From Carallia brachiata (taxonomy: Eukaryota; Streptophyta; Magnoliopsida; Malpighiales; Rhizophoraceae), in NCBI GenBank assembly GCA_021464245.1, contig JADCRB010000040.1:1094939-1158938 (forward strand): a stretch of DNA of 64,000 nucleotides. The letters run 5' to 3'. Under the pieces are notes generated by a model. It was not told the origin of the DNA. It was given only the letters and a program-made list of their open reading frames with translations, and did no database searches. Position numbers and translations under genes: made by a program. This document shows, piece by piece, positions 5,684 through 52,163 of this stretch. The number at the start of each line of letters is the position of its first letter. Position 1 is the stretch's first letter.

Positions 5684-6478
5684 TGTAAAAGAAAAAAAAA
5701 GAAGAAAAGTCAAAATCGGCGTTGCCGATTTCAAAGTCGGCAACGCCGACCAAGGAAAAAAAAAATTAAAAGATTCATTTTTCATGTGATGTTCACATAG
5801 GAAAGGAACCCTATAAATAGGCCCCTGCCCCTCAGTTCAAAATATATTCAGTAAATCTGTAAACAGAAAAATCCAGAAAATTTGAGAGAAAAAGAAAATT
5901 TTAAAAATTTCTCAAAAAAATTTCTCCTTTTCCAACGTGCTTTTACTCTGTAATATACTCTCCTAAATCCTTTTTGAGAGATATTTCAGAGGTAATCCCC
6001 AAAAAATTTGCTGTTTCCATTTCTAAAATTATTTTAGATTTATATTCTCCGATCTCCCTAAACCTGAATTTATGAGAATATAGATCTGAAAATATCAAAA
6101 TATTACAAATTCGGCTGGGATTAAGCCTCATACGACCCTCAGCAAAATTCAGGCAGCTCATCTGAGAACAAGTCCCTTCGACCCTCGGTGAAATTAAGCC
6201 AGATCAGCTCAGATCAGGTTTATGCGGTTTTTAACCGTAGTCAAAACGTTCAAATCAGATACAGTTTCAGTCTACCCAGTTCAAGATAAAACTGTGGAGA
6301 TTATTTCTGTCAATATCAAGCTAGTGCAGCCCTTGACGGAGTCAAAAAAGGAACACTAATCGGAGAATCTACGAAAATCGACCCTACGTAAATTTTCTTT
6401 TATTTTTAAATTTTTATTTGTAATTTATTTTTGTATTTTCGAGTTTAATCGTTTTAGACTCGAAATTTACCCGCTACA
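5684..6478 (+). repeat. 5' LTR of Gypsy element 1
   Basis: 795 bp, TG...CA ends. It contains a perfect 13-bp stem palindrome (tcggcgttgccga / tcggcaacgccga, about 5715-5750) near its start and a TATA box in the U3 part. The second half is homologous to the whole 433-438 bp LTR of element 2. Confidence 0.95.
5812..5819 (+). promoter_or_regulatory. TATA box in U3 of element 1 LTR
   Basis: The sequence tataaata sits inside ccctataaataggccc, a typical plant core promoter, and is repeated at 11801-11808 in the 3' LTR. Transcription of the element probably starts about 30 bp downstream. Element 2 LTRs lack this part. Confidence 0.75.
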
Positions 6479-6484
6479 AATTTT

Positions 6485-6502
6485 TGGCACGCTCGGTGGG
6501 AC
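6485..6502 (+). other. Primer-binding site of Gypsy element 1
   Basis: tggcacgctcggtgggac lies 6 bp inside the 5' LTR and is identical at the same place in element 2 (49084-49101, minus). This is where the tRNA primer should pair; I did not assign the tRNA. Confidence 0.7.
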
Positions 6503-6700
6503 ATCTTCACCTCCCATCTCTTGTTACTAAAAAAAAAAAAAACAAAAAGCAGCAGAGAAAAGAAAAAGAAAAAGAAAAAAAACAGAAAAAAAAAAAAAAA
6601 AAAAATAGAGAAAAAGACAAAAAAGGTAAAAAAGTAAAAAGTAAAAGGTAAAAAAAAAAAAGTAAAAAAAAAAATTTTTTACAGGTGTTCAGCACATTAA

Positions 6701-8328
6701 ATGGCACCAAAAAGAAGTACAGCTGCCGGTACCAACAAGAAGGCAACGGCTCCATTGCCTGCATCAACTACCCTACCTGGGTATGCAGGTCCAGAAACTC
6801 GCGACCGGACACAATTTCTTGTCGTTCAAACCAGACAAAAATATCGAAACAGAGAATCCACAGCTTCCACAGCAACAGGATCTCTCCCCTGACTCTCTTG
6901 CCGCATGGAGGAGTCGATTACCCACCTCGATCGAAGTCGGGGGCAACACAACGAAGTCCGCTCAACAGAATCCGACTCATTCTGTAGAGATCCACACAGA
7001 AAAGGAATCCCCTACCCTAGTCTTTCGCGGAGCCTCATCTGTTGCCGTCATGATGACCAACACAACCAGTACAGAAGAAAGGATTTCAGAATTGGAGAAT
7101 AAGATTTTGCAGCTGATCAGAGTCGTGGAGGAAAAAGATCAACAGATCGCTGCTCTCAAAGGAAAAACCCCAATCCAAATCGATCCCGAGATCCGCGAGG
7201 AGCAACCATATCCACCCGGTTTCACTTCCAGAAGCCACACCAGCCGACGTCTTCACCGCAGAAAAGCGACCAGGTAGTTCTACACAGCTGCCACCCTCAA
7301 ATTCTGTAGCTTCGCTATCTGTTCAACAATTGCTGGAAATGATAGTTAATACGATCCGCCTGCAACAAGCTACATCATTCCAAAGATCACAGATGTACGT
7401 CAAACCGTACACCAGACGAATCGAAAGTCTCAACATGCCTCTGGGCTACCAGCCGCCCAAATTTCAACAATTCGACGGACGAGGCGATCCCAAACAGCAC
7501 GTCGACCACTTCGTTGAAATCTGCAACAACGCGGGAACTTACGAAGATCTCTTGGTGAAACAGTTTGTTCGTTCACTCAGGGAGACCGCTTTCACCTGGT
7601 TCATAAATCTTGAACCAGAATCGATCGACAGTTGGGAACAGCTACAACGAGTTCCTCAACAGATTTTTCAGCACTCGAAGGACGGTAAGTATGATGGAGC
7701 TTACCACACCAAACAAAGGAAAGGAGAGCCCGTTGTCGAATACATCAACAGATGCGTGCCCTCAGCTTAGACTGCAAAAGATCGTCTGATGGAGACTTCT
7801 GCTGTGGAGATGTGCATCCAGGGAATGCATTGGGAGCTGTCCTTCAAAAGCTGGCGAACCTTCGAAGAGCTGGCGACCCGCGCACATGATATGGAGATAA
7901 GCATCCAGACTTCTGGAGGCACGATTCCCATCCAATTGGACCAGCAAGGGGGCAGAAGGGAGATTAAGAAACCCAACAGTTCCGAAAAAGGAAAAGAAGT
8001 GATGACTGTTGAAGCCGCACCAGTAAAAGTGGGAGCCAAAGTTAAGGTAAATCCTCCGACTCAAATAACTCAGCCAAAACAACAGGAAAGGCGGAAAGTG
8101 ACATTGCGAGAATTGGAGCAGAAGCAGTATCTATTCCCTGACTATGACGTTCCCGACATTCTTAAACAACTCTTGGAGGCGAAGCTGATCGAACTCCCAG
8201 AGTGCAAATGGCCGAATGAAAGGGATCGAGTCAGTGATCCGAGATTCTGCAAATATCACCGGATAGTAAGTCATCCAACCGAGAAGTGTTTTGTCCTGAA
8301 GGAGCTAATCATGAAGCTCAAGAGCTAG
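6701..8328 (+). pseudogene. Gag of Gypsy element 1 (frameshifted)
   Basis: Structural protein of the retrotransposon particle. The ATG at 6701 starts MAPKRSTAAGTNKK, matching the gag start of element 2. Frames then shift. A heptad-like coiled-coil segment (ISELENKILQLIRVVEEKDQ) lies at about 7080-7150. The conserved retrotransposon gag core (PKFQQFDGRGDPKQHVDHF, later FTWFINLEPE) lies at 7450-7660. An in-frame stop occurs at 7768-7770. After a further shift, 7789-8328 carries a CxxxH...H..C knuckle-like motif (CKYHRIVSHPTEKC). No single frame covers the region, so it is inactive as it stands. Confidence 0.85.
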
Positions 8329-8734
8329 AATAAAATCATTCTAGACCAGGAAGGCATAACTTCTGCAAACCAGACCACCATCACTTCAAAACCATCAGAA
8401 GAGGTGACACACCATAAGGAGGAGCCGCTCGACAACAAAAAGTCGACAATGGAGAAGGTATATGAAGCTCTCCAAACCCTTCTTGCTAATCCTCAGCTGT
8501 TTATAGCTTTGCAATCAACAGAAGTATGACAAAATCAAGTCAGCAATACTCTCCAGACCTCAGCTGAATCACAGCCATCAAATGATTCTAACTCAGCGGA
8601 GCAGCAGGCGGACCAAAATCACGTCGGATGTTACTCCGCTATCTCATTTTCAGATGAGGATCTTCTGCTGGGGTCCAAACCCCACAATCGGCCGCTGTAT
8701 GTATCAGGCTATGTGAAAGAACAGAAGGTCCGAC

Positions 8735-10369
8735 GTATTCTGATCGACGATGGTTGGCAGTTAATATTATCCCAAAATCCACCATAAAGGAGCTCGGTAT
8801 CGACATTGATGAATTATCAGACAGCCGCTTGATGAGTCATGACTTTAATCAAGGAGGACAGAAAGCAATTGGGATGATTCACTTGGAGCTAACTATCGGT
8901 AATCTCACTTCTAGCACTCTATTTCACGTGATCGATGCACGTACCACATATAAGATGTTGCTAGGACGACCGTGGATTCATGAAAATGGAGTTGTGCTTT
9001 CAAGCCTGCATCAGTGCTTCAAGTACTACAATGGTGGCGTTCAAAAGGTCAATGCTGACTTAAAGCCGTTCGATGATGCTGAATCACATTTGGCGGATGC
9101 AGTCTTCTACACCGACACAGACAATCCAGAGATCATTCCATCAAAAGCTACTTGGACTTGGGGCATCCACAAAAAGGGAAAAGCTGTTGAAGAACTTGCC
9201 AATGCTCAACCTCATGCTCCGACAAATAAAAAGCTGCCACAGGTTGCTGAAGTTCGTCCGAAGGATGTTGCATCTTCAAGCTCCACTCCAGTCCTACGCT
9301 ATGTGCCGAAGTCACGACGCCCAGAAGGTCAACCCCCTTTCTCTTATTGTGTTGATCCTAAACAGGAGCAAGGACATAGTCAACCCAAAACAAAGGAATT
9401 GCACAACCTGAAGGAGACTTACATTATGCTGATTCCAAAGATTGAGCCGGTTTTGTCTTCAAAACCATTAAAAGGTTTCATCAAACCACACACAGCAGCA
9501 GTCGAAGGCGGCTCACTTCCAGAAAGAAGAACACACGAAGGATTCGATCCTAATGCATACAAGCTCTTGGCCAAGGCAGGCTATGACTTCTCAAACCCGA
9601 GCACAATGGGTACGCTGCCGTCCACACATGGTGCCGCTTCTCAATCATCACAGTCCCGACCTGGCTTAGGCTATCAGGAGAAGTCACCTGTGTGGATCAC
9701 GCTAAAGAGCCGAAGCCGAGCAGCTGATGCACGTGCCATCACCACCACCACCAAACAAGACAAGTTTATCCAGTTAAACAAAGAAGGTGAAGTCAGAGGC
9801 TCTACATTTCATGTCACAATTAGTGAGGAGGCTGAGTCCGACTCATCAGACGGTGAAGTAAAGGAGGCTCCCCCAGAACTTGAAGATGGTGGCCAAGCAA
9901 CTGTTGATGAACTCAAGGAGGTCAATCTTGGCTCTCCGGAAGATCCTCGACCTACATTTGTAAGTGCTTTACTTACTGCAGAAGAAGAGCAAGAATATGT
10001 TCGGGTATTAAGTCAATTCAGGGACGTGTTCGCATGGAGTAACAAGGAAATGCCTGGACTTGACCCAAAAATCGCGGTGCATCGTCTAGCAGTAAAGAAA
10101 GGTGTTCGTTCTGTCAAGCAGCCACAACGACGGTTCCGCCCGGAACTCATTCCACAAATCGAGGAGGAGGTTAACAAGCTGATCAATGCTGGCTTCATCC
10201 GAGAGGTCACCTACCCAACGTTGATTGCCAATATAGTCCCGGTAAGAAAGAAGAATGGACAGTTAAGGGTATGTGTTGATTTTCGAGATCTTAACATGGC
10301 CTGCCCGAAAGATGACTTTCCGTTGCCCATAACGGAGATCACAGTCGATGCAACAAACGGGTCAAAGTA
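8735..10369 (+). pseudogene. Protease and N-terminal reverse transcriptase of element 1 (truncated)
   Basis: An open frame from 8754 codes 538 residues. Just upstream the aspartic protease active site IDDG is followed by a one-base deletion relative to element 2 (which reads IDDGSAVNII). The protease body continues through VIDARTTYKMLLGRPWIH. A proline- and charge-rich linker leads to the reverse transcriptase start (FIREVTYPTLIANIVPVRKK, then RVCVDFRDLNMACPKDDFP), and the frame stops at 10368-10370. The YVDD catalytic part is absent because of the internal deletion. The IDDGSAVN type of protease and the retroelement order point to the Tat lineage. Confidence 0.85.
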
Positions 10370-10751
10370 ACCAGCACTGAGTTGTTTTTCCAAAGAACAG
10401 TCTGCCGTTCCGATAGTAGATCCCACCGGTACAGCTTCGCCCTCAAATGAAGCAGGTCCGAGTTCTACCACGACAATGGTCTCTTCATGCTATAACGATC
10501 AAGCTATAGCCTGTGGGAGCATGCGTACTGGTCCTGGTGGTCTTACGGAATCAGCCAAGGGTTTATTCCTCCTAAGTACTTAAGTTTAGGAGGGACTTTT
10601 CTAGCAGAAGGAAGTCATTCCGGCGAAACTTTGCCTCTCTTCCCAAATATTCCAGCAGCATCAACCAGCCGGGAGGCTCCAGCAACATCCGCATCATCGG
10701 CCCACTAGACGAGCCGAGCTTGACTTAGAGCTGCGCCTTGGGCGCCGTTAG
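10370..10751 (+). pseudogene. 3' remnant of captured WUSCHEL-type (WOX) gene in element 1
   Basis: This stretch aligns base for base with the C-terminal half of the WOX-like ORF of element 2. It starts at the aaccagcactgag that directly follows the homeodomain there. It keeps a WUS-box, TLPLFPN, at 10628-10645 preceded by GTFLAEGSHSGE. Several indels and stops break the frame, and the C-terminal LDLEL motif of element 2 has decayed (gacttagagctg). The homeodomain itself lies in the deleted part. The shared tail shows that the gene was already in the common ancestor of both elements. Confidence 0.75.
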
Positions 10752-10771
10752 GACGGCCGACAAGATAAGGT

Positions 10772-10859
10772 GCAACGACTTTGGCAGCACACAGTAACGA
10801 CTTCCGCAGCACACGACAACGACTTCTGCAACATACGGTAACGACTTTCGTAACCCGCA
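10772..10859 (+). repeat. Four 22-bp tandem repeats, element 1
   Basis: Units of the form GCAACGACTTTGGCAGCACACG, four copies in 88 bp, directly after the WOX remnant. The same 4 x 22 bp array is found in element 2 at 41337-41424. Confidence 0.85.
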
Positions 10860-11036
10860 TCAGCTGCTGCCTCTTTTGTCTCTTATGGGAGAAAGGGACG
10901 TGGAGGACATTCTCGATTCTGCGTACCTCCTTTTTGACTTTTCAAAAAAAAAAAAATCTCTTTATGTTATGTATATATATCCTACATGTCTGACTCATAA
11001 TACTCACCCCTCAGTTCTTCTTCTTCTCAAAAGAAA

Positions 11037-11216
11037 ATGGCTAGTCTCTACACTTGTCCCAAGAAGTTCTTTGATCAAGAAGTTAGAGGCACACGAGCTA
11101 AGAAAAGAAGGAGTAGTCTTCCTCGTGGGATCCCTAACGCCATCGGTGTCATGGAGTTCCAACTACTCTCCTTGTTCACATCTACCAAGAGGAATGAGAC
11201 ACTGCAATCATCCTAA
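11037..11216 (+). CDS. Accessory basic ORF of element 1 (unknown function)
   Basis: 59 codons beginning MASLYTCPKKFFDQEV, with a basic, nuclear-localisation-like cluster RAKKRRSS at residues 20-27. The same start and basic cluster occur at 40999-41160 in element 2, with different C-termini because of indels. The ATG follows a tatatat run and a CT-rich leader about 60-100 bp upstream, so it may have its own promoter. I do not recognise a family. It lies between the captured WOX tail and the 3' LTR and may be more captured host sequence. Confidence 0.4.
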   Translation: MASLYTCPKKFFDQEVRGTRAKKRRSSLPRGIPNAIGVMEFQLLSLFTSTKRNETLQSS

Positions 11217-11659
11217 TCTTCCTTTGGATGCGGCGACGTACAGGGAAGTTCCAACTACTCTTCTTACGTCGAAGCAGACTTGGGAATCATAACTAAGTCA
11301 GTCTCTCTGTGTGTCGGTTTTGAAGTTCCAAAGTGCTGGGCCTTCCTCTTGGAGAGGTTCAAGTTCTTTGCCTACCGGATCATCCTCACCAGAGCTTTGG
11401 AACTTCAAAGAACTTTTGCCAGCCTTTGCGACCCATGGAAGCTCGAACGCACCTGAAGCCAGAATGTCAATTTTTATATTGGCTAGGCTACTAACTTTCT
11501 CAAGATCGTATCGGTTTCCATTGCGATCCAACAACAGTTGGGTTAGTCGGAGATAGAAGATTTCAACGTTCAATGTTTATCAGAACATCTCAAGTTTCAA
11601 ACTAGACTTCAAGACTCGGTGCGGATCACGTTTGTAAAATTCTTCCTTACCGACCCTTG

Positions 11660-11672
11660 AAGTGGGGGCATT
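11660..11672 (+). other. Polypurine tract of element 1
   Basis: gaagtgggggcat immediately precedes the TGTAAA start of the 3' LTR. The same tract flanks the 3' LTR of element 2. Confidence 0.75.
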
Positions 11673-12468
11673 TGTAAATGAAAAAAAAAAAGAAGAAAAG
11701 TCAAAATCGGCGTTGCCGATTTCAAAGTCGGCAACGCCGACCAAGGAAAAAAAATTAAAAGATTCCTTTCCTATGTGATGTTCACATGGGAAAGAAACCC
11801 TATAAATAGGCCCATGCCCCTTAGTTTAAAATATATTCAGTAAATCTGTAAACAGAAAAATCCAGAGAATTTGAGAGAAAAAGAAAAAATTTTGAAAATC
11901 TCTCAAGAAAATTTCTCCTTTTCCTACGTACTTTTACTCTGCAGTATACTCTCCTAACTCCTTTTGAGAGATATTTCAGGGGTAAGCCCCCCAAAAATTT
12001 ACTGTTTCCATTTCTAAAATTATTTTTAGATTTATATTCTCTGATCGCTCTAGATCTAAATTTATGAGAATATAGATCTGAAAATATCAAAATATTACAA
12101 ATCCGGCTGGGATTAAGCCTCAAACGACCCTCAGCAAAATTCAGGCAACTCATCCGAGAACAAGTCCCTTCGACCCTCGGTGAAATTAAGCCAGATCAGC
12201 TCAGATCAGGTTTCTGCGGTTTTTAACCGTAGTCAAAACGTCCAAACCAGATACAGTTTCAGTCTACCCAGTTCAAGATAAAACTGTGGAGATTATTTCT
12301 GTCAAGATCAAGCTCGTGCAGCCCTTGACGGAGCTCAAAAAAACACTAATCGGAGAATTTACGAAGATCGACTCCACGTAAATTTTCTTTTATTTTTAAA
12401 TTTTTATTTGTAATTTATTTTTGTATTTTCGAGTTTAATTGTTTTAGACTCGAAATTTACCCGTTACA
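11673..12468 (+). repeat. 3' LTR of Gypsy element 1
   Basis: 796 bp, starts TGTAAATG and ends TTACA. It carries the same palindrome (about 11702-11740) and TATA box as the 5' LTR. A modest number of substitutions separate the two LTRs, so the insertion is not brand new. Confidence 0.95.
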
Positions 12469-36508: not shown

Positions 36509-39275
36509 ATCCCCGCTATTTTAAAAGACTAATTCTACTGGATTAATCAATAAGGATGTAATACATCATTTTTTGTGACTTTTGGGTTATGAACTAAAAA
36601 CTAGGAGAACAAGATTTGATATTCAGAAGTATAGTGAAATAAAAATTTTTATAAATCATAACTTTTTTATAAATAACAGTGAACTTGTCATCATATTATA
36701 TTCTCTAAGATTACGTTATTTAACGCAGTTGAATGTTGTTAGGCCATGAACTCGCCTAATTTATCTTCATGAGAGCTCTAAAGATGGACCTCACTGGAGC
36801 ATCCCCGCTCTACTCTCATATAGTTAATTTTATCAAGTGTATATTCTGATAACACACCACCCATAATGGCCATAGAATTCATTAAGAGCATATAATTGAA
36901 CCTCAAACTTCAGAATTTTTGCACTATCTACGCCATATGAAGGGATTTTGTAATTTTATAGTGCTCACAAGGTTAATCAGTGACTTGTTATTACCCATAT
37001 AAACCTACTTCAAGGGATCTCCTATCACATAGGTTGGGTTTCCATCACTCTTGACTATTTCTTTATAGGCATATGTCTCATTCCCCTCGATGTATTGTTC
37101 ATATATATATATATATATATACTAGCCTTTCGCTTAGTAGTTTAGTTAGATGGTCAATCAATTTTATCTCTGGCCACAAAATTAAGTGATCAATTTATTA
37201 CTCATAACTTATTCTGCTATCTCACAAGTTAGACAAATATGTCTACTCTTCAATTATTCAACCTACTCTTGGTGTGCGCAATATAGGCTTGGCTTATCGA
37301 GATCATCGACAATCATAATGTTGGTTTCCCATAGAATAGAATATTCATTTTTAGCCAATTTGCCTCCATATTGGCAGTCTCTGAGATTGTACACTAAAAA
37401 TCCATGTTGGACTGAGTAAGAATCATTTGTTTATTAGGCTTTTAAGCCGCTACTTCACCTTTAAATGTGAACTCAAATTCATTTAATGGAATTTATCTCA
37501 TCTTGTTCGTGGTATCTCTCATATATTCCAAGGATATGGCTAGTAGAATACATTCAACCAGTATACTCATATTTAAGCATTCGTTGGCTCAAAAATAAAT
37601 TGGAAGATTTTACCTCCTTTTCTAAATGTGAATTATAGTACCACAAAGATCCGCAAGACAACTTTCCGACACAAAGTTGCAAGTTCATTTCTTCATCTCT
37701 CATTTACCATGTCACATAGGCATGTTTGAACAGAAAACTTAAATCCACATATTCCATTAGCATATGAATAGTTACGCCAAAATAAAGAAATCATCAATAT
37801 CACTTCTCAACAGAAAAATATAAAACTCCACAAGCAATATGATATCAAAAAGAAAATTCTTCATAAACAGCATTACCTGGAGCTGAATTTGAATAGACTA
37901 ATTTGTTGGACATTGTCCCCGTGTCATTTAATAATCAATGACCAAGAAGATTGCATTTTTTTTTTTCTGAAAGAATATTGGTTCACTTTGCTACGCTTTT
38001 CATTGTCAACCCTTGTATGTGGGCTCATAGAAAACTTTTAGTACTAGCTCTCAATAAATTTATGAATTGAAAGCCTTACACCGTCACATTAATCGTCTCC
38101 GATACTTTAGTCTGAAAATACACACAAGTCTTGTCTCTTTCCTATGATTCCAAGCCAAAACAAAAAAATCAGATCATTAGCTCTTAAATAAAATAATAAA
38201 AGCTAATATTCATGAAAATAATTACTTTTGATTTTTCTCATACAATCAATCAAGGCCAGAAATATTATAGTTTGCATGGTTGAAAAACAAACTAGAATTC
38301 ACAGTGCCAAGCAACATAATAGTGATGCTTTACTAGTCAAGACACATCCAAGAAACACATCAATCACTTATAAATGGGATCAACAATATTCTTTTGAGTC
38401 ACAAGTACTTTGTAATGGGGTTACCAACTCATGATCCTCTTGTCACTTCAAAGATTAGACTCTAGTAAGATCCGGATGTAACCTAATCACATGATACTAA
38501 AAGTAATTCACAAGTTATGAACACACTCGTTTGGGAAGAAAAAAAAAACTTTTAAATAATAATATCAAACTCGAACAGGATCATGGCTCACAACATGTAT
38601 GTCACTCAAAGTGGTGATAAAAATACCATGAACATTCTAGCACGGGCTTGTAAAGCACTTAGCGTGTTGGCTTATAACTCGCATGGCATAATAATTATCC
38701 TAATTTAATCGACATCCATAAAAAAAAACATAATATAATAATTTTAATAAATAGTAATAAACCACTGTCATCATAAATTTTCTAAACTCCCACATAGAAA
38801 GAAAATTTTTTGGTTCACATTAATAACCGATTTAAATATTAATAAAACCAATAATATTTCTAACATTACCTTCCACGGTACAAGAGCAACGCGACTCTCG
38901 TATGATTGTTCTTCAACTCCAAATATATGACTATAATTTTTTTTTAAATAACAACCACTTAATCAATCCATTAATGCAAAACTTGTTGTTATTCGGTCTA
39001 TATTACTCACTAAAGTTATAAAATATGCATAATAAATCTATGAAGATTGTCATGGCCAATTTTTCAATAAAAATGGATTCGGCCACTAGTTAATTATAAG
39101 TGTAGATGTATAGACATATCAAATAGCAATCCCAAGAAACTAACATAGTGATTATTGAACTGCGGATGATAGCAATTACGAGAAGAGGAAAATGAAAAGA
39201 ACATACGAGTCGTTGTACCGATTAGAAACATTCCAATATGCACATAACACAAATTAATAAAACTATCCTTAAGAT

Positions 39276-39881
39276 TGAAGGAAAATTATCAATAGAAATA
39301 AACATAAAATTTAGATAAATAAATTAAAAGTTAGAGATGTTGAACAATTAATGAAATAAATATATATTACTAAATAAATAAATAAAATTAAATAAGGAAA
39401 AGATATCATGTCTAAAGCATACAAATGTACTATCCTTAACGATAGTTTCCGCTCCCGTAGACAAGTGGTCCTAACGCAATAGGTCGAAGCGGTTATCCTC
39501 CTAAGATACTACAGACTTTCTCACTAATATGCACTTCAAATAGAGAGATTACAAAAACAACTTGTCTTTTGATTAATCCAGCAAAGAGTGCCTTTCATAA
39601 ATAGGTACGGAGAAAACACAACTACACATCTTACAATCCCCCAAAAGATAAAGGAATGATCTCTCTACATAATATGTTTACTTTTATAGCTCATAAGTAA
39701 GAATAATGTCAAATAAGGTATTTCATAAATTATAACGGCTAGTAACAGTTATATATATAAAGACACATAATGGCTAGTTAACGGTCAAATAATAGTTAGT
39801 CCAACGGTCATGCAGTGGCTAGTTTGATCAAGTCTTATATGTGATAATTAACCTTTTAAAATATAAGAATATTTTACAACA
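39276..39881 (-). repeat. 5' LTR of LARD-like element
   Basis: 606 bp, TGTTGTAAAA...CCTTCA on the minus strand. It matches the interrupted LTR at 34093-36508 with scattered substitutions and indels. Confidence 0.85.
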
Positions 39882-40061
39882 TAAGGTAAGTACAGAAAGA
39901 ACTTAATTTCTATCCATCGACAAATTTAAATTATTTTTAAACCCCATTCTTTTGTTTCTTTTTTGATATAAAACCCCATTCTTTTTTTGACCATTGGAAC
40001 ATATGTATTAGATATAAAATCTAAAGTACCAATCAAGTAACGGGGTTTATTACAGACAGTC

Positions 40062-40499
40062 TGTAAAGCGTAAATTTCGAGTTTAAAACAATTAAACTCG
40101 AAAATACAAAAATAAATTACAAATAAAAATTGTAAAAATAAAAGAAAATTTACGTGGGGTCGATCTCCGTAGATCCTCCGATTAGTGTTCCTTTTTTGAC
40201 TCCGTCAAGGGCTGCACGAGCTTGATCTTGACAGAAATAATTTCCACCGCTTTTTCTTGAACTGGATATACTGAAACTGTATCTGATTTAGACGTTTTGA
40301 CTACGTTTAGGAACTGTAGAGATTTGATCTGAGCCGATCTGACTTAATTTCACCGAGGGTCGAATGGACTTGTTCTCGGATGAGCTGCCTGGATTTTGCT
40401 GAGGGCCGTATGAGGCTTAATCCCAGCCGGATTTGTAATATTTTGATTTCTTTTTCTATATTCTCTCTTTTTTTTTTCTTTTTTTTTTATTTGTTTACA
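40062..40499 (-). repeat. 3' LTR of Gypsy element 2
   Basis: 438 bp, TGTAAACAAATAAA...CTTTACA on the minus strand. It is bordered inward by the purine tract (agtgggggcat on minus, about 40500-40511). It corresponds to the second half of the element 1 LTR and lacks that LTR's palindrome and TATA box. Confidence 0.95.
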
Positions 40500-40534
40500 A
40501 ATGCCCCCACTTCAAGGGTCGGTAAGGAAGAATT

Positions 40535-40998
40535 TTACAGAGATGATTCGAACCGAGTCTTGAAGTCCAGTTTGAAATTTGGAAACGTCCTGATGAACAT
40601 TGAATCTTGGAGTCTTCTATCTTTGACCATGTCTGCTGTTGTTGGATCGCAATAGGAATCCGATACGATCTTGAGAAAGTTAGCAGCCCAGCCAATATAG
40701 AAATTGAAGCCTTGGCTCCAGGTGCATTCGAGCTTCCATAGCTCGCAAAGGCTGGCAAAGGTTCTTTGAAGTTCCAAAGCTCTGGTGAGGATGATCCGGT
40801 AGGCAAAGAACTTGAACCTCCCAAGAGGAAGGCCCAGCACTTGGAACTTCAAGACCGGCACACAGAGAGACTGACTGTAGTGATGATTCCAAGTCTGCTT
40901 CGACGTAAGGAGAGTAGTTGGAACTTCCCCGTACATCGCCGCATCCAAAGGAAGATTAGGATAATTGCAGCGTCTCATCCCTCTGTGGTAGATGTGAA
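40535..40998 (-). other. 3' accessory region of element 2, possible ORF continuation
   Basis: A 162-residue open frame spans 41023-40535 (VMEFQLLSLVHIYHRGMRRC...). The homologous region of element 1 (about 11140-11640) is not open in the same frame, so coding is doubtful. At the DNA level a segment aagttccaactactctcctta is repeated about 90 bp apart. Similarity between the two elements here is high, so the region was part of the ancestral element. Confidence 0.35.
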
Positions 40999-41160
40999 CT
41001 AAGGAGAGTAGTTGGAACTCCATGACACCGATGGCGTTGGAGACTGAGTTTCGAGGGCTTTTAGGGATCCCTCGAGAAGACTACTCCTTCTTTTCTTAGC
41101 TCGTGCGCCTCCAACTTCTTGATCGAAGAACTTCCTGAGACAAGTGCAGAGACTAGCCAT
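40999..41160 (-). CDS. Accessory basic ORF of element 2 (unknown function)
   Basis: 53 codons, starting MASLCTCLRKFFDQEV and containing RAKKRRSS, a nuclear-localisation-like basic cluster. It is conserved at its N-terminus with 11037-11216 of element 1. A tatatat run and a CT-rich leader precede the ATG in both copies. I do not recognise a family; it could be an exon captured from a host gene together with its promoter. Confidence 0.4.
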   Translation of the reverse strand: MASLCTCLRKFFDQEVGGARAKKRRSSLLEGSLKALETQSPTPSVSWSSNYSP

Positions 41161-41336
41161 TTTCTTTTGAGAAAGAAGAGCTGAGGGGTGAGTATTATAA
41201 CTCGGGAATGCAAGATATATATACATACGATAAAGGTTTTTTTTTTTTTTTTTGAAAAGTCAAAAAGAAGGTACGCAATCGAGTAGGGCCATCCACGTCC
41301 CTTTCCTGCATAAGAGACAAAAGAGGCAGCGGCTGA

Positions 41337-41424
41337 CGCGTGTCACGAAAGTCGTTACCGTGTGTTGCAGAAGTCGTTGCCGTGTGCTGCAGAAGTCGTT
41401 ACCGTGTGCTGCCAAAGTCGTTGC
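41337..41424 (-). repeat. Four 22-bp tandem repeats, element 2
   Basis: On the minus strand the units are GCAACGACTTTGGCAGCACACG and close variants, exactly 88 bp. They lie between the WOX-like stop codon and the basic ORF. The array is the same in element 1. Confidence 0.88.
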
Positions 41425-41444
41425 ACCTTATCTTGTCGGCCGTC

Positions 41445-42171
41445 CTAGCGGGGCCCGAGGTGCAACTCCAAGTCAAGCTCGACCTCGTCTGGTGGGCCGA
41501 TGATGTTGACGTCGCTTTCCGGCTGGTTGATGCTGCCGGAATATTCTGGAAAGAGAGGCAAAGTTTCGCCGGAATAACTCCTTTCTGCTAGAAAAGTTCC
41601 TCCTAGACTTAAGTATCTAGGAGGGATGAACCCTTGGCTGACTCCGTAAGACCACCAGGACCAGCATGCATGCTCCCATGGGCTACGGCTTTGATGAACA
41701 TACCGTGGAGAGACCATTGCAGTGGAAGAACTCGGACCTGCTTCATTTGAGGGCGAAGCTGTACAGTGGGATTTACTTGGAACGACAGACTGTTCTTTGG
41801 AAAAGCAGTTCTCAGTGCTGGTTTTTCCTGCTTCTCCGATTCTGGAACCAATAAAACACATTTTTTCCTTCGATTGCCCCGAGCGGGCGCAATCGTGAGA
41901 CAAGTTGGTAAATTTGAGATGCACTAGGAATAATACCTCCATTGTTGTGGAAGACTTCCTCCAAATTTGCAGTTGTGCCATGGTCGGTTGCCACCTTGTG
42001 CGGGGTGATCTTTCTCTCCCTTGTCTTGAGGTTCTGCAACTGGTTCCATCTTTCTTGTGGCAGAGGAGCAAAGGTCTTGGTATGTGGTGAAGATCGGTTG
42101 AGACTGATGAGTTTCAGACTCAAACCCTCCGTTGCTTTTATATTTTTGGGCCGTTCACAGTTTATACTCAT
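41445..42171 (-). pseudogene. Captured WUSCHEL-related homeobox (WOX) gene, one frameshift
   Basis: WOX proteins are plant-specific nuclear transcription factors controlling stem-cell and lateral-organ programmes. From the ATG at 42171 the frame codes 119 residues. Residues about 55-116 form a homeodomain with TANLEEVFHNN, PSASQIYQLVSRLR and the recognition helix GAIEGKNVFYWFQNRRSR, the WOX-type sequence. A stop follows (41815-41817). Shifting by one base, the other frame continues to 41445 and contains the WUS-box TLPLFPEY (41547-41564) and a C-terminal LDLEL motif (41463-41477) of the EAR/LxLxL kind. So all three WUS-clade landmarks are present in order, split over two frames. No intron is seen, which fits capture through an RNA intermediate. 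It is sense to the retrotransposon. Confidence 0.85.
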
Positions 42172-42513
42172 GCGGGCCAGGAGTTGGATTGGATTTTGAA
42201 CTTGGGTTTTGGATTGTGTCTGGAACTTGGAATTTTTGGGTTTTGGGTTTTGGATTGAATTTGGGTCGAGTGTTTGGGCTTCTAGACTTGGATTTTTGGA
42301 TTTGGGTTGAGTGTTTGGGTTTTGAGTCTGGACTTTTGGATTTAGTTTTCAGGCTTTTGAGTTGGACTCTGAATTGGGCTCAAGTGTTTGGGTTTGGATT
42401 TTCGCTTGGTCTTTCAGGTCGGGACCTCGCAATTTTTTTTTTTTTGATTTTTTTTTTCTTTTTTTTTCTATCTTTTTTTTTGATTTTTTTTTTGATTTTT
42501 TTTTAAAACATAT
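42172..42513 (-). repeat. Low-complexity spacer between pol and the WOX-like ORF
   Basis: On the minus strand an A-rich tract (about 42430-42513) is followed by a degenerate array of CCAAACCCAAACACTC/CCAAATCCA-type units (about 42195-42420) up to the WOX ATG. The long frame on the + strand here is only the complement of this repeat. Confidence 0.75.
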
Positions 42514-43540
42514 TTACACATAACACTGTTTCAGAAATTTACCATTGATCGGGCCGATTCGGACGCCTTCTTGGTCTGACAGCATAAGCGTGTGAGTGTA
42601 GGCCTCCTGCACTAAGTATGGCCCGTCCCATTTGGAAGTAAGCTTGTCACCAGGCCGATGCTTCATGTTGATGGGCGTCGTACTGCAAGAACAAGGTCTC
42701 CAACTTGAAAAGATCGAGGGCGGACCCTGCGGTTGAACGTGTTGGTGAGCCGGGCTTGGTAGCACTCAAGTTGCTGTTGTGCTTTGAGCCTCCTTTCATC
42801 GAGAGCTTCTAACTCATCCAGACGTAGGCGAGCATTCTCCTCCTGTGTGAGTCCTTCCAGAACAGCCATGCGCAGGGATGGAATCTGTGTTTCCAACGGC
42901 AGTATTGCTTCGACACCGTAGACAAGTGAGTATGGCGTCGCCTGTGTTGGAGTCCGATAAGTTGTACGATACGCCCATAATGCCTCCGGAATTCTGTCAT
43001 GCCAATCTCTTTTGGATTTAGAGACTACCTTCCGCAACAGGTTGCATAAGGTCTTATTAAATGCCAATCACTATGGATGACTTGTACTGCTTGAACTTGA
43101 ACTTCTCGCAGAGCTTGTCGATTAAGCTGTTGTAAAACTGCTTACCATTATCAGTGATGATGAATCGAGGGACTCCATAACGATAGATCAGCTGAGTCCG
43201 GATGAAATTGGCAACATGCTCCTTCTTTACCTCTCTAAATGGAATGACTTCAGCCCATTTTGAGAAGTTATCGGTTGCTGCGAGGATGTACAGGTGACCT
43301 AGGGATGAGTTTGGCAAGGGCCCCACTAAGTCAAGACCCCACGCTTCAAAGGGCCAGGATGAGATGGATGCAGTGGGCTCCGGTGGTTGATGTATGTAAT
43401 TCGCATGAAATTGACAAGCTTGACAGTTTTAGCAAACTCAATTGAATCACGTACCATGGTTGGCCAGTAGTATCCCATCCTTCTGAGTTGAAGTGCAACT
43501 TAGGCCCGATTGATGTCCGCCACAAACACCAGAATGTGCT
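42514..43540 (-). pseudogene. Integrase of Gypsy element 2 (catalytic Glu region deleted)
   Basis: 43326-43057 reads the core with YILAATDNFSKWAEVIPF (first Asp) and GVPRFIITDNGKQFYN (second Asp). After KQYKSS the frame breaks. The next recognisable residues, AFNKTLCNLLRKVV (43067 down), resume at the point that normally follows the NGxAEA segment, so about 23 nt including the catalytic Glu are gone. The C-terminal part continues to 42514 (VYGVEAILPLETQIPSL; GPYLVQEAY; NGKFLKQCYV stop). The zinc-binding segment upstream (about 43340-43540) has lost clear His/Cys residues. Confidence 0.85.
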
Positions 43541-43569
43541 TCAGCGAGAGCTGTTTTGCCTCTTCATTC

Positions 43570-44456
43570 CTAGGCAGCGAAGTAAAACTCCATCAAAAGA
43601 CCTTCGATACAGAGCATCCTTGAGATATATGAAGCGGGGAGCTCGTCGTTGAATTTCTGTCTTATGACGACGATCTTCGGGCAGCTTCCCGTGCTGTAGG
43701 TAGTCAATGATTGGTTGGCGCCAATCCTCGTCCTCCGCGAGACGTACAGATACAGCGTTGGCTGCTGTAGTTTCTTCATCATCCTTTGTGGCACTATCCA
43801 TTTCTGGCATACGGCAACAACTGTAGCCTGGATTTCTGACTTTGCAAGAGAAGTGGCCAGGTTAGCCAACGCGTCTGCCTGAGTGTTTTCTCGTCGAGGC
43901 ACATGCTCCAAGGTGATGCTTTCAAATTCATCCATTAGCTGTCGAGCACGTTGATGGTAAGGCGCAAGTCCTCTTTCTTCACGTCATACAATCCTGTAAG
44001 TTGGTTGATGACGAGCTGGGAATCTCCATGGACTTCTATAGTTGGAATCTTCATATCGACAGCCATTTGAAGACCAATGATCAAAGCCTGGTATTCAGCA
44101 ACATTATTTGAACATAACTCACCGAGAATGATAGCATATGGTAGTATTTGTCGTTGAGGAGTGACAAACACTATGCCGGCACCAGCACCATCACGCCTTG
44201 CTGCACCATCAAAGAACATCGTCCATGGTGGTAGTGTCTCAATGTAAAAGACCTCTTCATCTGGAAGATCATCTGTGAACTCCCAATCTGACGGAATAGG
44301 GTGATCTGCAAGGAAGTCTGCTAGAGCTTGTCCTTTGACTGCTTTTTGAGGCACGTAGACAATGTCGTAGCTTTGTAGGATTACTGCCCACTTGGCAAGT
44401 CGTCCTGACAAGATTGGTCTTAGATAAGATATATTTGACAGGATCAGCTCTGGCAA
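43570..44456 (-). pseudogene. Second (archaeal-type) RNase H of element 2
   Basis: 44456-43935 contains WTMFFDGAARRDGAGAGIVF, NNVAEYQALIIGLQMA and IEVHGDSQLVINQLTG, an RNase H fold additional to the one following RT. 43935-43570 continues with LEHVPRRENTQADALANLAT (last catalytic Asp) and then linker sequence. A dual RNase H is characteristic of Tat-lineage Gypsy elements. A stop/shift at about 43935 separates the parts. Confidence 0.85.
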
Positions 44457-45490
44457 TGAGACGTACCGTGTGAGCTTGCATGTAGTGCCTCAGCTTGTCA
44501 ATGGCAAAGAACAGTGCTAGACATGTCTTTTCAATGGGCGAATAACTCAGCTCCGGACCGTTTAGTGTTCTGCTCAAGTAGTACAGGGCAACTTCCTTTC
44601 CCTGCTCATTTTCCTGTGCAAGCAAGGCTCCCAAAGATCTTTCCTGCGCTGCAATGTAGAGAATCAACGACTTTCCTTGAATTGGAGCCCTAGGACCGGT
44701 GGATTGGAAAGGTACTTCTTTATGCTCTCAAAGGCTTTGCTGCAAGCTTCGTCCCACTCGAAGTTGACATCCTTCTTCATCAACCGATGGAAAGGTTGAC
44801 ATCTCCCAGCTAAATTGGAGATGAAACGGCGAATGTAGGCCAGCTTTCCTTGTAGACTTCGCAGCTCGTGCAGGTTTTTAGGTTCAGGCATCTTTTGAAT
44901 TGCCTCAACCTTTGACTGATCAACTTCGATTCCACGATGGCGCACCACGAACCCAAGAAACTTTCCTGATGTGACACCGAATGCGCACTTGAGAGGGTTC
45001 ATTTTGAGCTGATGCCTCCGAAGTCTTTCGAACACTGTCTTGAGATCCTCGAGGTGGTCTTTGCGCTTCTTAGTCTTTACAACTAAGTCATCAACATAAC
45101 ATTCTACAATCTTGTGCAGCATGTCATCAAAAATTTTTTGCATAGCACGTTGATAAGTGGCGCCAGCATTTTTAATCCAAACGGCATAACTTTGTAGCAG
45201 TATATACCTTTTGGGGTGCGGAATGCTGTCAACTCCTCGTCTTCTGGTGCCATTCTGATTTGGTTATAGCCTGAAGAACCATCCATGAAGGACAATGCTT
45301 CGTGACCCGTTGTTGCATCGACTGTGATCTCCGTTATGGGCAATGGAAAGTCATCTTTCGGGCAGGCCTGTTAAGATCTCGAAAATCAACACATACCCTC
45401 AACTGTCCATTCTTCTTTCTTACGGGACAATGTTGGCAATCCACGTTGGGTAGGTGACCTCTCGGATGAAGCCAGCATTGATCAGCTTGT
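44269..45490 (-). pseudogene. Reverse transcriptase and first RNase H of element 2 (frameshifted)
   Basis: 45343-45104 reads SFMDGSSGYNQIRMAPEDEE and KVMPFGL. 45143-44664 reads VECYVDDLVVKTKKR with the catalytic YVDD at 45098-45087, then FLGFVVRHRGIEVDQSKVEA. 44667-44269 is the RT-linked RNase H (YYLSRTLNGPELSYSPIEKT). Small indels separate the frames near 45143, 44667 and about 45360-45490. The corresponding region is missing from element 1. Confidence 0.88.
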
Positions 45491-46930
45491 TCACCCCCCT
45501 CGATTTGTGGAATGAGTTCCGGGCGGAACCGTCGTTGTGGCTGCTTGACAGAACGAACCCTTCTTTACTGCTAGACGATGCACCGCAATTTTTGGGTCAA
45601 GTCCAGGCATTTCTTTGTAACTCCATGCGAACACGTCCCTGTATTGACTTAATACCTGAACATATTCTTGCTCTTCTTCTAGTAAGTAAAGCACTTACAA
45701 ATGTAGGTCGAGGATCTTCCGGAGAGCCAAGATTGACCTCCTTGAGTTCATCAACAGTTGCTTGGCCACCATCTTCAAGTTCCGGGGGAGCCTCCTTCAC
45801 TTCACCATCTGATGAGTCGGAATCAGCCTCCTCGCTAATTGTGACATGAAATGCAGAACCTCTGACTTCACCTTCTTTGTTTGACTGGATAAGCCTGTCT
45901 GTTTGGTGGTGGTGGTGATGGCACGTGCATCAGCTGCTCGGCTCGGCTTCGCTCTTTAGCGTGATCCGCACAGGTGACTTCTCCTGATAGCCTAAGCCAG
46001 GTCGGGACTGTGATGTTTGAGAAGCGGCGCCATGTGTGGACGGCAGCGTACCCATTGTGCTCGGGTTTGAGAAGTCATAGCCCGCCTTTGCCAAAAGCTT
46101 GTATGCATTAGGATCAAATCCTTCATGTGTTCTTCTTTCTGGAAGTGAGCCGCCTTCGACTGCCCCCGTGTGTGGTTTGACGAAGCCTTTTAATGGTTTT
46201 GAAGACAAAACCGGCTCAATCTTTGGTATCGGCAGAGTGTAAGTCTCCTTCAGGTTGTGCAGCTCCTTTGTTTTGGGTTGGCTATGACCTTGCTCCTGTT
46301 TAGATCAATACAATAAGAGAAAGGGGGTTGACCTTCTGAGCGTCGTGACTTCGGCACATAGCGTAGGACTGGAGTGGAGCTTGAAGATGCAACATCCTTC
46401 GGACGAAGTTCAGCAGGCTGTGGCAGCTTTTCATTTGTTGGAGCTGGGTTGGCATTGGCAGGTTCTTCGACAGCTTTTCCCTTTTTGTGGATGCCCCCAG
46501 TCCAAGTAGCTTTTGATGGAATGATCTCCGGATTGTCTGTGTCGGTGTAGAAGACTGCATCCGCCAAATGTGATTCAGCATCATCGAACGGCTTTAAGTC
46601 AGCATTGACCTTTTGAACGCCACCATTGTAGTACTTGAAGCACTGATGCAGGCTTGAGAGCACAACTCCATTTCCATGAATCCACGGTCGTCCTAGCAAC
46701 ATCTTATATGTGGTACGTGCATCAATCACGTGAAATAGAGTGCTAGAAGTGAGATTACCGATAGTTAGCTCCAAGCGAATCATCCCAATTGCTTTCTGTC
46801 CTCCTTGATTAAAGCCATGAATCATCAAGCGGCTGTCTGATAATTCATCAATGCCGATGCCGAGCTCCTTTATGGTGGATTTTGGGATAATATTGACTGC
46901 TGAGCCATCGTCGATCAGAATACGTCGGAC
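45491..46930 (-). pseudogene. Protease and linker of element 2
   Basis: The aspartic protease active site IDDGSAVNII lies at about 46888-46917, followed by LGIGIDELSDSRLM and VIDARTTYKMLLGRPWIHGN. The frame 46828-46250 then gives a long variable linker (SSSTPVLRYVPKSRRSEGQP). 46208-45930 and 45800-45597 carry further linker pieces, leading to the RT start. It is colinear with element 1 at 8735-10200 and very similar to it. Confidence 0.83.
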
Positions 46931-48904
46931 CTTCTTCTCTCACATAGCCTGATACATACAGCGGCCGATTGTGGGGTTTGGACCCCAGCAGGAGATCCTC
47001 ATCTGAAAATGAGATAGCAGAGTAACATCCGACGTGATTTTGGTCCGCCTGTTGCTCCGCTGAGTTAGAATCATTTGATGGCTGTGATTCAGCTGAGGTC
47101 TGGAGAGTATTGCTGACTTGATTTTGCCACACTTCTGTTGATTGCAAAGCTATAAACAGCTGAGGGTTAGCGAGAAGGGTTTGGAGAGCTTCATATACCT
47201 TCTCCGTTGTCGACTTTTTGTTGTCGAGCGGCTCCTCCTTACGGTGTGTCACTCTTCTGATGGTTTTGAAGTGATGGTGGTCTGGTTTGCCGAGGTTATG
47301 CCTTCCTGGTCCAGAATGATTTTATTCTGGCTTTTGAGCTTCATGATTAGCTCCTTCAGGACGAAACACTTCTCGGTTGGATGACTTACTATCCGGTGAT
47401 ATTTGCAGAATCTCGGATCGCTGACTCGATCCTTTTCATTCGGCCGCTTGCACTCTGGGAGTTCGATCAGCTTCGCCTCCAGAGTTGTTCAAGAATGTCG
47501 GGGACGTCTGAGTCGGGGAATGGATACTGCTTCTGCTCCACTCTCGCAATGTCACCTTCCGTTCCTGTTTTGGCTGAGTTATTTGGGTCGGAGGATTTAC
47601 CTTAGCTTTGGCGCCCACTTTTACTGGTGCGGCTTCAACAGTCATCACTTCTTTCCTTTTCCGGAGCTGTTGGGTTTCTTAATCTCCCTTCTGCCCCCTT
47701 GCTGGTCCAACTGGATGGGAACCGTGCCTCCGGAAGTCTGGATGCTTATCTCCATATCATGTGCGCGGGTCGCCAGTTCTTCGAAAGTTCGGGGTTTGAC
47801 ACCCTGCAGGATGTATAACAGCTCCCAATGCATTCCTGGATGCACATCTCCACGGCAGAAGTCTCCGTCAGGCGATCTTTGCAGTCCAAGCTGAGGGCAC
47901 GCCATCTGTTGATGTATTCGACAACGGGCTCTCCTTTTTTGTTTGGTGCTGGTAAGCTCCATCATACTTACCGTCCTTCGAGTGCTGAAAAATCTGTTGA
48001 GGAACTCTCGTTGTAGCTGTTCCCAACTGTCGATCTATTCTGGTTCAAGATTTATGAACCAGGTGAAAGCGGTCTCCCTGAGTGAACGAACAAACTGCTT
48101 CACCAAGAGATCTCCGTAAGTCCCTGCGTTGTTGCAGGTTTCAACAAAGTGGGCGATATGCTGCTTGGGATCGCCTCGTCCGTCGAATTGTTGAAATTTG
48201 GGCGGTTGGTAGCCCAAAGGCATGTTGAGACTTTCGATCCGTCTTGGAAGGATGTAGCTTGTTACAATCGGATCGTATTGGCTATCATTTCCTGCAATTG
48301 TTGAACAGATAGCGAAGCTACAGAATTTGAGGGTGGCAGCTGTGTAGAACTACCTGGTCGCTTTTCTGCAGGAAGACGTCGGCTGGTGTGGCTTCTGGAG
48401 TGAAACCGGGTGGATATGGTTGCTCCTCGCGAATTTCAGGATCAACTTGGATCGGGGCTTTTCCTTTGAGAGCTGCGATCTGTTGATCTTTTTCCTCCAC
48501 GACTCTGATCAGCTGCAAAATTTTGTTCTCCAATTCTGAAATCCTTTCTCTGTGTGGTTGTGGGTCATCATGACGGCAACAGATGAGGCTCCGGGAAAGA
48601 CTGGGGGAGAAAACTCTTCTGATTCTTCTGTGTGAGTCGGATTTTGTTGAGCAGGATTCGTCGTGTTGCCCCCGACTTCGATCGGGGTGGGTGATCGACT
48701 CCTCCATGCGGCAAGAGAGTCAGGGGAGAGATCCTGTTGTGCGAGCTGTGGACTCTCCATTTCGACATTTTTGGGTTTGGACGGCAAGAAATTGTGTCCG
48801 TCCCCGGGTTTCTGGACCTGCGTACCCAGGTAGGGTAGTTGATGCAGGCAATGGAGCCGTTGCCTTCTTTTTGTGGCAGCAGTTGTACTCCTTTTCGGTG
48901 CCAT
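46931..48904 (-). pseudogene. Gag of Gypsy element 2 (frameshifted)
   Basis: The ATG at 48904 begins MAPKRSTTAATKRR. The coiled-coil ISELENKILQLIRVVEEKDQ lies at about 48480-48545. The gag core PKFQQFDGRGDPKQHIAHF and FTWFINLEPE is at 48223-48035. Later pieces (47965-47645, 47648-47436) match element 1. At least four shifts or stops break it, and the zinc-knuckle region sits near 47340-47420. Confidence 0.83.
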
Positions 48905-49107
48905 TTGATGTGCTGAACACCTGTAAAATTTTTTTTTTTTTTTTTTTTTACTTTTACTTTTTTTACTTTTTTTTTTTTACTTTTTTACTTTTTTTTACTT
49001 TTTTTTTTTTACTTTTTTTTTTCTCTCTCGGCTCCCCTTTTACCTTTTTTTTTTTTTAAGGAACAGAGATGGGAGGTGAAGTTGTCCCACCGAGCGTGCC
49101 AAAAATT

Positions 49108-49540
49108 TGTAAAGCGTAAATTTCGAGCTAAAACAATTAAACTCGAAAATACAAAAATAAATTACAAATAAAAATTGTAAAATAAAAGAAAATTTACGTG
49201 GGGTCGATCTCCGTAGATCCTCCGATTAGTGTTCCTTTTTGACTCCGTCAAGGGCTGCACGAGCTTGATCTTGACAGAAATAATTTCCACCGCTTTTTCT
49301 TGAACTGGATAGACTGAAACTGTATCTGATTTGGATGTTTTGACTACGTTTAGGAACCGTAGAGATTGATCTGAGCCGATCTGGCTTAATTTCACCGAGG
49401 GTCGAATGGACTTGTTCTCGGATGAGTGCCTGATTTTGCTGAGGGCCGTATGAGACTTAATCCCAGCCGGATTTGTAATATTTTGATTTTTTTTTTCTAT
49501 ATTCTCTCTTTTTTTTTTCTTTTTTTTTTATTTGTTTACA
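49108..49540 (-). repeat. 5' LTR of Gypsy element 2
   Basis: 433 bp, differing from the 3' LTR by a handful of substitutions and single-base indels. The primer site is at 49084-49101 (minus). Followed outside by the CAGTC target duplication. Confidence 0.95.
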
Positions 49541-49545
49541 CAGTC

Positions 49546-51821: not shown

Positions 51822-52163
51822 TCAACCACTTGTGTGGCTGTCGAAACATTGGCTTTCCTTTTCCACCATCAAAGGAAAGAAACGTTGTCGGAAAATATCC
51901 AAGGAAAGAAACATAGTTTGTTGTGTCGCGTAGTCGGCTTTCCTTTTCCACCATCGAAGGAAACAAACGTAGTTTGTTGTCGCGTAGTCGGCTTTCCTTT
52001 TCCACCATCGAAGGAAACAAACGTAGTTTGTTGTCGCGTAGTCGGCTTTCCTTTTCCACCATCGAAGGAAAGAAACATAGTTTGTTGTCGCGCAGTCGGC
52101 CTCTACAGGAGAAGAGTACTGTGTTTCAATAGCCACCAACGTGGTTTGCGCTAGGCCGCACCC
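51822..52163. mobile_element. Foldback element with 54-bp tandem repeats
   Basis: Homologue of the 27928-28269 element: shared tagtttgttgtcgcgtagtcggc and the right end gccaccaacgtggtttgcgctaggc. The centre is a tandem array of a 54-bp unit (starting tagtttgttgtcgcgtagtc) at about 51915-52085, three to four copies. Because 54 is a multiple of three, several frames on both strands stay open; these are not genes. Confidence 0.7.

Follow-up and report, generated by a model that had tools for sequence, protein, structure and literature searches.

WUSCHEL (WUS) is the gene that maintains stem cells in plants. Does a retrotransposon in the genome of Carallia brachiata carry a gene of this type, and is that gene kept for a function or merely carried along? 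The locus that raises the question lies in a stretch of 64,000 nucleotides, hereafter the window, taken from an assembly of 337.5 Mb in 164 contigs. The original prediction, drawn from the sequence of the window, placed a WOX-type homeodomain in sense orientation between pol and the 3' LTR of a Tat-type element, followed after a one-base shift by a WUS-box and an LDLEL motif.

The element and its additional gene

The window contains a complete copy of the element on the minus strand and an internally deleted copy of the same family on the plus strand, with the following features.

40062..49540, minus strand: complete LTR retrotransposon with the WUS-like gene, recognised by a TG...CA LTR pair, a 5-bp duplication and pol domains
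49541..49545, minus strand: target-site duplication GACTG, 5' side, read from the flank
49108..49540, minus strand: 5' LTR, 433 bp
44664..45143, minus strand: reverse transcriptase (RT), C-terminal domain part, Pfam RVT_1, E 4.4e-12
44269..44667, minus strand: RNase H of RT, Pfam RT_RNaseH, E 4.3e-19
43935..44456, minus strand: second RNase H, RVT_3 type, Pfam RVT_3, E 7.1e-13
43057..43326, minus strand: integrase core, Pfam rve, E 1e-9
41812..42171, minus strand: open frame of 119 aa with the homeodomain (residues 65-116), containing GAIEGKNVFYWFQNRRSR, from the ORF listing with PDB and Pfam matches
41445..42071, minus strand: open frame of 208 aa with the C-terminal motifs TLPLFPEY and LDLELHLGPR, from the ORF listing
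41445..42049, minus strand: WUS-like additional gene, frame-broken in this copy, matching positions 1-624 of a relative with an uninterrupted frame
41541..41564, minus strand: WUS-box TLPLFPEY, read from the sequence
41457..41477, minus strand: EAR-like motif LDLELHL, read from the sequence
40062..40499, minus strand: 3' LTR, 438 bp
40057..40061, minus strand: target-site duplication GACTG, 3' side, read from the flank
6074..12468, plus strand: second, internally deleted copy of the family, with LTRs ~90% like those of the first copy and internal matches

Both LTRs of the complete element begin with TG and end with CA, and their alignment of 439 columns contains 8 substitutions and 7 gap positions. 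The Pfam domains follow the order RT, RNase H, RVT_3-type RNase H and integrase, which is the Ty3/gypsy order, so that the LTR pair, the target-site duplication and the RT-RNase H-integrase order expected of this superfamily are all present. RT_RNaseH and RVT_3 in series constitute the dual RNase H by which the Tat group is recognised, as cited in the part of PMC9289625 considered here. The element is Ty3/gypsy, and its domain content, as distinct from an RT tree, assigns it to the Tat group, in agreement with the original prediction. A third sense ORF (40535-41023) was rejected as a candidate: it has 1-4 stops in 19 of 20 other copies and a dN/dS of 0.8, like non-coding DNA. Rfam gave no match in window positions 38000-52000. 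In the second copy pol runs straight into the final two thirds of the WUS-like gene (10365-10751), and its gag is matched by Pfam at E 5e-5, just below the cut-off.

The rest of the window holds several features of separate interest. ORFs at 12906-15124 on the minus strand resemble a Ty1/copia polyprotein, as judged by eye. Sesquiterpene-synthase-like pieces on the plus strand (30590-33012 and 54602-54991) were likewise judged by eye except for 30590-31090, whose nearest PDB match is delta-cadinene synthase, and the element has perhaps inserted near a terpene-synthase cluster. Two pairs of direct repeats, 29619-29917/33414-33715 and 36083-36508/39454-39881, lie ~3.4-3.8 kb apart with 78-89% identity and may reflect a tandem duplication.

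The WUS-like gene sits between the integrase and the 3' LTR in the same sense as pol, with its frames where they had been predicted. The homeodomain frame matches the WUSCHEL chains of the PDB at E 1.4e-12, STENOFOLIA at E 1.8e-11 and the Pfam Homeodomain family at E 9.8e-8, above the cut-off, so that the resemblance to WOX proteins is significant; the Pfam EAR match on the C-terminal motif (E 0.93) falls under its cut-off. Two frames, a WUS-box and LDLEL were found as described, but the frames are separated by more than a one-base shift: compared with the uninterrupted relative, to which it is 93.1% identical with gaps counted, the window gene differs in length at six points, each time by a number of bases not divisible by three, and contains no stop codon. 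The frame of the methionine at 42171 reaches the homeodomain, read by eye, only through a frame-breaking length difference, and the first in-frame ATG of the uninterrupted reference relative corresponds to 42049. A search of ~5.77 billion proteins with the broken ORF of the window yielded 7 candidates, none at E 0.001.

Identity and family-wide carriage of the gene

Uninterrupted relatives of the gene elsewhere in the genome read as a single protein. The reference relative has 207 residues, a start of MEP, a full homeodomain from TRW, TLPLFP and a C-terminal LDLELHLGPR. It matches the PDB structure of WUSCHEL at E 2.9e-18 and, in the set of 5.77 billion, has 419 protein matches with E no higher than 0.01. 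Among the 120 listed of these 419, Hibiscus WUSCHEL is the best match (E 3.0e-18), none is a close copy (the best identity is 53%, over a third of the query), and all 120 share TLPLFP and a span of 49 residues from W39 to W87. This span measures 49 in the element gene and in host WUS, whereas each of the five WOX1-5 homeodomains measured in the host has 48; it is also 49 in Arabidopsis WUS, with which the element gene shares 33 of 65 homeodomain residues. Across 72 element copies, TLPLFP is exact in 43 and reads ILPLFP in 12, and LDLEL is found in 55.

The host itself has two WUS genes, one starting with MEP and the other with MDP, each made of three separate open stretches (exons judged by eye) with TLPLFPIH and SLEL; unlike them, the element gene is intronless. 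The host WUS is 64-66% identical to that of Erythroxylum, the closest found, with which it shares a loop absent from the other 25 proteins shown. This comparison points to a plant of Malpighiales close to Erythroxylaceae or Rhizophoraceae, in place of the Salicaceae suspected at first, and excludes Vigna. Identification of the gene as a member of the WUS clade from its homeodomain, WUS-box and LDLEL is thus supported, and the 49-residue span together with TLPLFP brings the sequence-based assignment nearer to WUSCHEL itself.

A homeodomain tree with seven element copies joins the element homeodomains into one group (support 99/97) on a long stem. The donor is another matter: the best placement in a larger tree is beside WOX9/11, with weak support (68/78) and a warning about long branches, and the approximately unbiased (AU) test rejects none of WUS (p 0.185), WOX3 (0.288) and WOX5 (0.28) as the neighbour. 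Homeodomain trees alone cannot prove WUS as the donor, and the tree suggested with the original prediction therefore unites the copies but does not settle their source. That the donor was a different WOX gene of the WUS clade or the intermediate clade strikes us as improbable. The WOX9/11 placement and the two unrejected neighbours would favour such a donor, as would the RRSR of helix 3, which resembles WOX11; the WUS-length loop, TLPLFP, the unanimity of the 120 listed matches and the MEP start known from one of the two host genes all speak against it, and the tree in question is one in which, by the tool's own warning, long branches meet.

The gene is not confined to the window. A search of the genome with the window ORF produced 3216 first-look candidates, and all 150 scored matches reached E 2.4e-33 or better. 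Among the matches listed for a WUS homeodomain query, nine were host WUS-clade genes with 64-84% identity and 141 were others with 51-56%; twelve of the latter were fetched, and all twelve were the element gene. A WOX13 query similarly recovered two WOX13-like genes at 86-91% along with many of the same element places. Combining two match lists gives at least 266 distinct places for the WUS-like gene, on 82 of the 164 contigs; by a hand recount at least 257 of them match in the homeodomain and 9 only in the stretch before it.

Position within the element was checked in 21 copies (L009-L028 and the window copy), each taken with about 10 kb of sequence. In 20 of the 21, the integrase precedes the matched ORF by 1.1-1.3 kb, the exception (L016) having a stretch of N, and a gag piece was found in 19. 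LTR-like sequence occurs 1.7-2.3 kb downstream in 20 copies, and the remaining one (L018) has its own direct-repeat pair there. The expectation that further copies reside in retrotransposons, as opposed to a single occurrence outside of them, is borne out.

Since these copies had been selected by the gene, RT was used as an independent query. Among the best 150 RT places, 68 have a listed gene match 2.4-3.5 kb downstream. From the other 82 we sampled 20 copies (every third of 60), and the gene stands where expected in 19 of these, two of which are truncated by the edge of the fetched stretch, with a 37-bp fragment in the last. Seventeen cover the full length of the gene (592-624 of 624 positions); among these, 8 have neither a frame break nor a stop, one being visible only to position 598. 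Intact ORFs thus exist in the family, though the window copy is not one of them. The WUS-like gene is a fixed trait of the element family, present in most copies and at one place.

Constraint and broken reading frames

Selection on the gene was assessed using the frame of one uninterrupted copy as the codon ruler and pooling pairs with at least 6 differences and dS > 0.03. The homeodomain part was defined as codons 1-78, the C-terminal part as 49 residues, and pol as 740 codons in the frame of copy L027. Pooled over pairs of the 21 copies, dN/dS rises from 0.10 in pol and 0.20 in the homeodomain part to 0.57 in the C-terminal part and 0.64 in the middle. The homeodomain part has a dN/dS of 0.24 in 54 copies; in the 17 full-length RT-sampled copies the values are 0.33, 0.42 and 0.67 for the homeodomain, middle and C-terminal parts. 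Over the three sets the middle ranges from 0.42 to 0.64 and the C-terminal part from 0.56 to 0.70.

Several controls put these values into perspective. Shifting the frame in the 21 copies raises the homeodomain part to 0.64 and 1.72, with the middle at 0.66 and 1.23 and the C-terminal part at 0.40 and 0.80; shifted frames of the homeodomain part span 0.5-1.7 over the 21-copy and RT-sampled sets, and one shifted frame of the C-terminal part lies below the true frame (0.40 and 0.46). Non-coding DNA on the 3' side, 700 bp read in three frames in the 21 copies, yields 0.51-0.79. Neutral simulations treated by the same method return 0.65-0.81 for the homeodomain part, with single-pair 1% quantiles of 0.20-0.29, so that a single pair at 0.25 stands only near the 1-5% edge of the simulations, and the pairs are not independent. 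The constraint on the homeodomain part is also seen in the 54 copies between lineages with a dS of 0.38 there.

The distribution of variants was examined in 55 copies. Variants common to at least 3 of them comprise 81 replacement and 50 silent changes with no stop (50 of 131, an excess of silent changes with p 0.007), and within the homeodomain part 20 of 44 are silent (p 0.008). Singletons number 107 replacement, 38 silent and 8 stop, as expected by chance, and the two sets differ with p 0.039. One shared nonsense variant appears once all 72 copies are counted. The homeodomain part is under purifying selection, weaker than that on pol, and the rates in the rest of the gene cannot be clearly told apart from neutral ones. 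Purifying selection, raised as a possibility in the original prediction, is accordingly found at a dN/dS of 0.20-0.33 in the homeodomain part but not in the C-terminal part, which is near neutral.

Silent divergence over the counted pairs of the 21 copies is 0.10 for the WUS-like gene overall and 0.16 for its homeodomain part, beside 0.08-0.11 for the 3' non-coding DNA and 0.07 for pol (0.06-0.11 by part). The higher value in the gene than in pol could mean that copies with similar pols carry several different lineages of the gene, an arrangement that perhaps arose by template switching.

Residues of the DNA-binding surface can be compared with those of WUS, in which R38, W39, K82, Q89, N90 and R94 serve in base contacts, in the environment of the +1 base or in the docking of the N-terminal arm, according to the portion of Sloan 2020 (PMC7203112) used here. 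Among the readable of 72 copies, R38 is kept in 70 of 71, W39 in 71 of 72, K82 in 72 of 72, Q89 in 68 of 71, N90 in 72 of 72 and R94 in 67 of 67. The mean conservation of these six (0.988) does not significantly exceed that of the 57 remaining homeodomain positions (0.949), and 9% of random sets of six homeodomain positions score as high. As the copies are young, such conservation indicates that the binding surface has not been lost, and not that it was selected; the WUS-type surface is intact, and no more than that.

Broken frames are common, and only 15 of 54 well-covered copies are uninterrupted in a sample partly picked by the broken ORF of the window. In 55 copies one-base deletions outnumber one-base insertions by 114 to 9. 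We consider it probable that assembly error is the main cause of the broken frame in the window copy, which may therefore be intact in the plant. The imbalance between deletions and insertions points this way, and so does pol, in which 19 of 20 other copies (95.5-99.3% identical to the reference) have 1-10 one-base deletions, yet substitutions between copies give a dN/dS of 0.10; real decay would add replacement changes too, so many of the deletions are likely to be errors in poorly polished repeats. On the other hand, homopolymers show no concentration of the deletions, some length differences are found again in as many as 9 copies and may be inherited, and the argument is based on the assembly rather than on reads.

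Proposed role and known systems

With a probability of roughly 0.6, we propose that an intronless WUS-like gene was captured by this Ty3/gypsy family and has been kept as a host-directed DNA-binding factor. Starting from the observed constraint on the homeodomain and the carriage of the gene throughout the family, we infer its capture history, expression, binding and role as follows. The element would have captured a WUS mRNA a single time, long ago, one origin being suggested by the single group that the element homeodomains form. The gene would be expressed from the sense transcript of the element as a protein of ~207 residues, either as a downstream frame or by means of a spliced or subgenomic RNA, with translation starting at the ATG after an A-rich leader. 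The 600 bp upstream of this ATG are 41-53% A, with an A-run of at least 11 in all 21 copies, which makes the leader a candidate aid to translation. The predicted protein would enter the nucleus and bind WUS-type (TGAA-like) sites, as its contact residues are the same as those of WUS. DNA binding is the likeliest selected activity because only the DNA-binding part is visibly constrained.

Acting in trans, the protein might stand in for WUS, or compete with it, in dividing, stem-like or germ-line-bound cells, and the resulting shift in host gene control could lead to the element being expressed or transmitted more, by analogy with a retrovirus that carries a cell-fate gene. The original prediction had likewise supposed that such a factor might alter the tissue expressing the element. 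Repression through the WUS-box and EAR-like motifs would be the least certain step: the original prediction had the DNA-binding domain and the repression motifs both retained, and both are indeed present, but the latter are not visibly constrained. A fuller picture, in which a high-copy retrotransposon makes its own WUSCHEL-like regulator, holds host cells in or pushes them into a stem-like, germ-line-bound state and is hence expressed and inherited, is offered tentatively.

The main rival to a host-directed role turns the homeodomain towards the element itself: an accessory protein may act on the LTR promoter, nuclear import or the choice of integration sites, with no part in host development. 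The confinement of clear constraint to the DNA-binding part would suit such a protein equally, and GENE23, an accessory ORF of the plant element Grande, is reported as nuclear in the part of PMC7264820 considered. WUS-type sites are not enriched in the LTR, however, where TGAA/TTCA show no excess (3 seen against 5.1 expected), and we regard this role as possible but doubtful. It is unlikely, in our judgement, that the gene is a WUS fragment picked up by chance and carried without function by an active family. Captured genes in plant LTR elements are reported in the same part of PMC7264820, and near-neutral middle and C-terminal parts, the many broken copies and contact residues no more conserved than their neighbours would all be natural in a passenger; a passenger would leave unexplained both the constraint on the homeodomain part, which extends across divergent lineages, and the retention of the gene in nearly all RT-sampled copies. 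The host-directed role remains our leading reading of the sequence evidence.

In this high-copy family, 19 of the 20 copies sampled carry a master regulator of stem cells whose DNA-binding part is constrained. Should the protein be made, a WUS-like factor could come from hundreds of loci, and the use of host cell-fate control by an element to reach the next generation would become testable. There are also consequences for annotation: elements of this kind can swell the apparent number of WOX genes in a genome, and masking them with a repeat library conceals a coding gene.

Comparison with known systems begins with WUSCHEL of eudicots (PDB 6ry3/6ryd), which the element gene resembles in its WUS-length loop, the named contact residues, TLPLFP and the C-terminal LxLxL, as well as in the MEP start of one of the two host WUS genes. 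It differs in having RRSR instead of HKAR in helix 3, no introns and a shorter length, and in being carried, hundreds of times over, within a retrotransposon family. Additional ORFs in sense orientation between pol and the 3' LTR of plant elements agree with it in position and direction; those discussed in the part of the review considered (PMC7264820), where a homeodomain goes unmentioned, are env-like, whereas the present one is a recognisable host transcription factor. The Tat-group elements of Phalaenopsis with an AlkB-like 2-ODD domain likewise have a host-type domain fixed through several rounds of replication (PMC9289625, in part), though their cargo is an RNA demethylase and the present one a developmental transcription factor. 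The same survey of 121 angiosperm genomes lists 2-ODD, B3 (DNA-binding) and other extra domains of LTR elements, and no word starting with homeo occurs in its main text.

The closest parallel comes from Vigna. According to the portion considered of a 2023 meeting report (PMC10714607), K. Naito observed many copies of WOX genes in V. marina and V. riukiuensis, over 1000 of them in V. riukiuensis, mostly flanked by identical LTRs with target-site duplications. This is the same amplification inside LTR elements, likened here by description and not by lineage, WOX type or sequence. The host is a different one, and its own WUS, pieced together by eye from the three open stretches, shares 57% identity with the WUS of Vigna unguiculata. 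Accounts of Salix viminalis and Cladopus, in the portions considered, contribute nothing on the element. The report is the one precedent found in the open-access literature, taken exclusive of bioRxiv preprints, and together with the present family it suggests that such captures may recur in plants. The WUSCHEL-type gene of this Carallia LTR retrotransposon is a real and family-wide capture; its DNA-binding part is constrained, and the capture has a single brief precedent, in Vigna.
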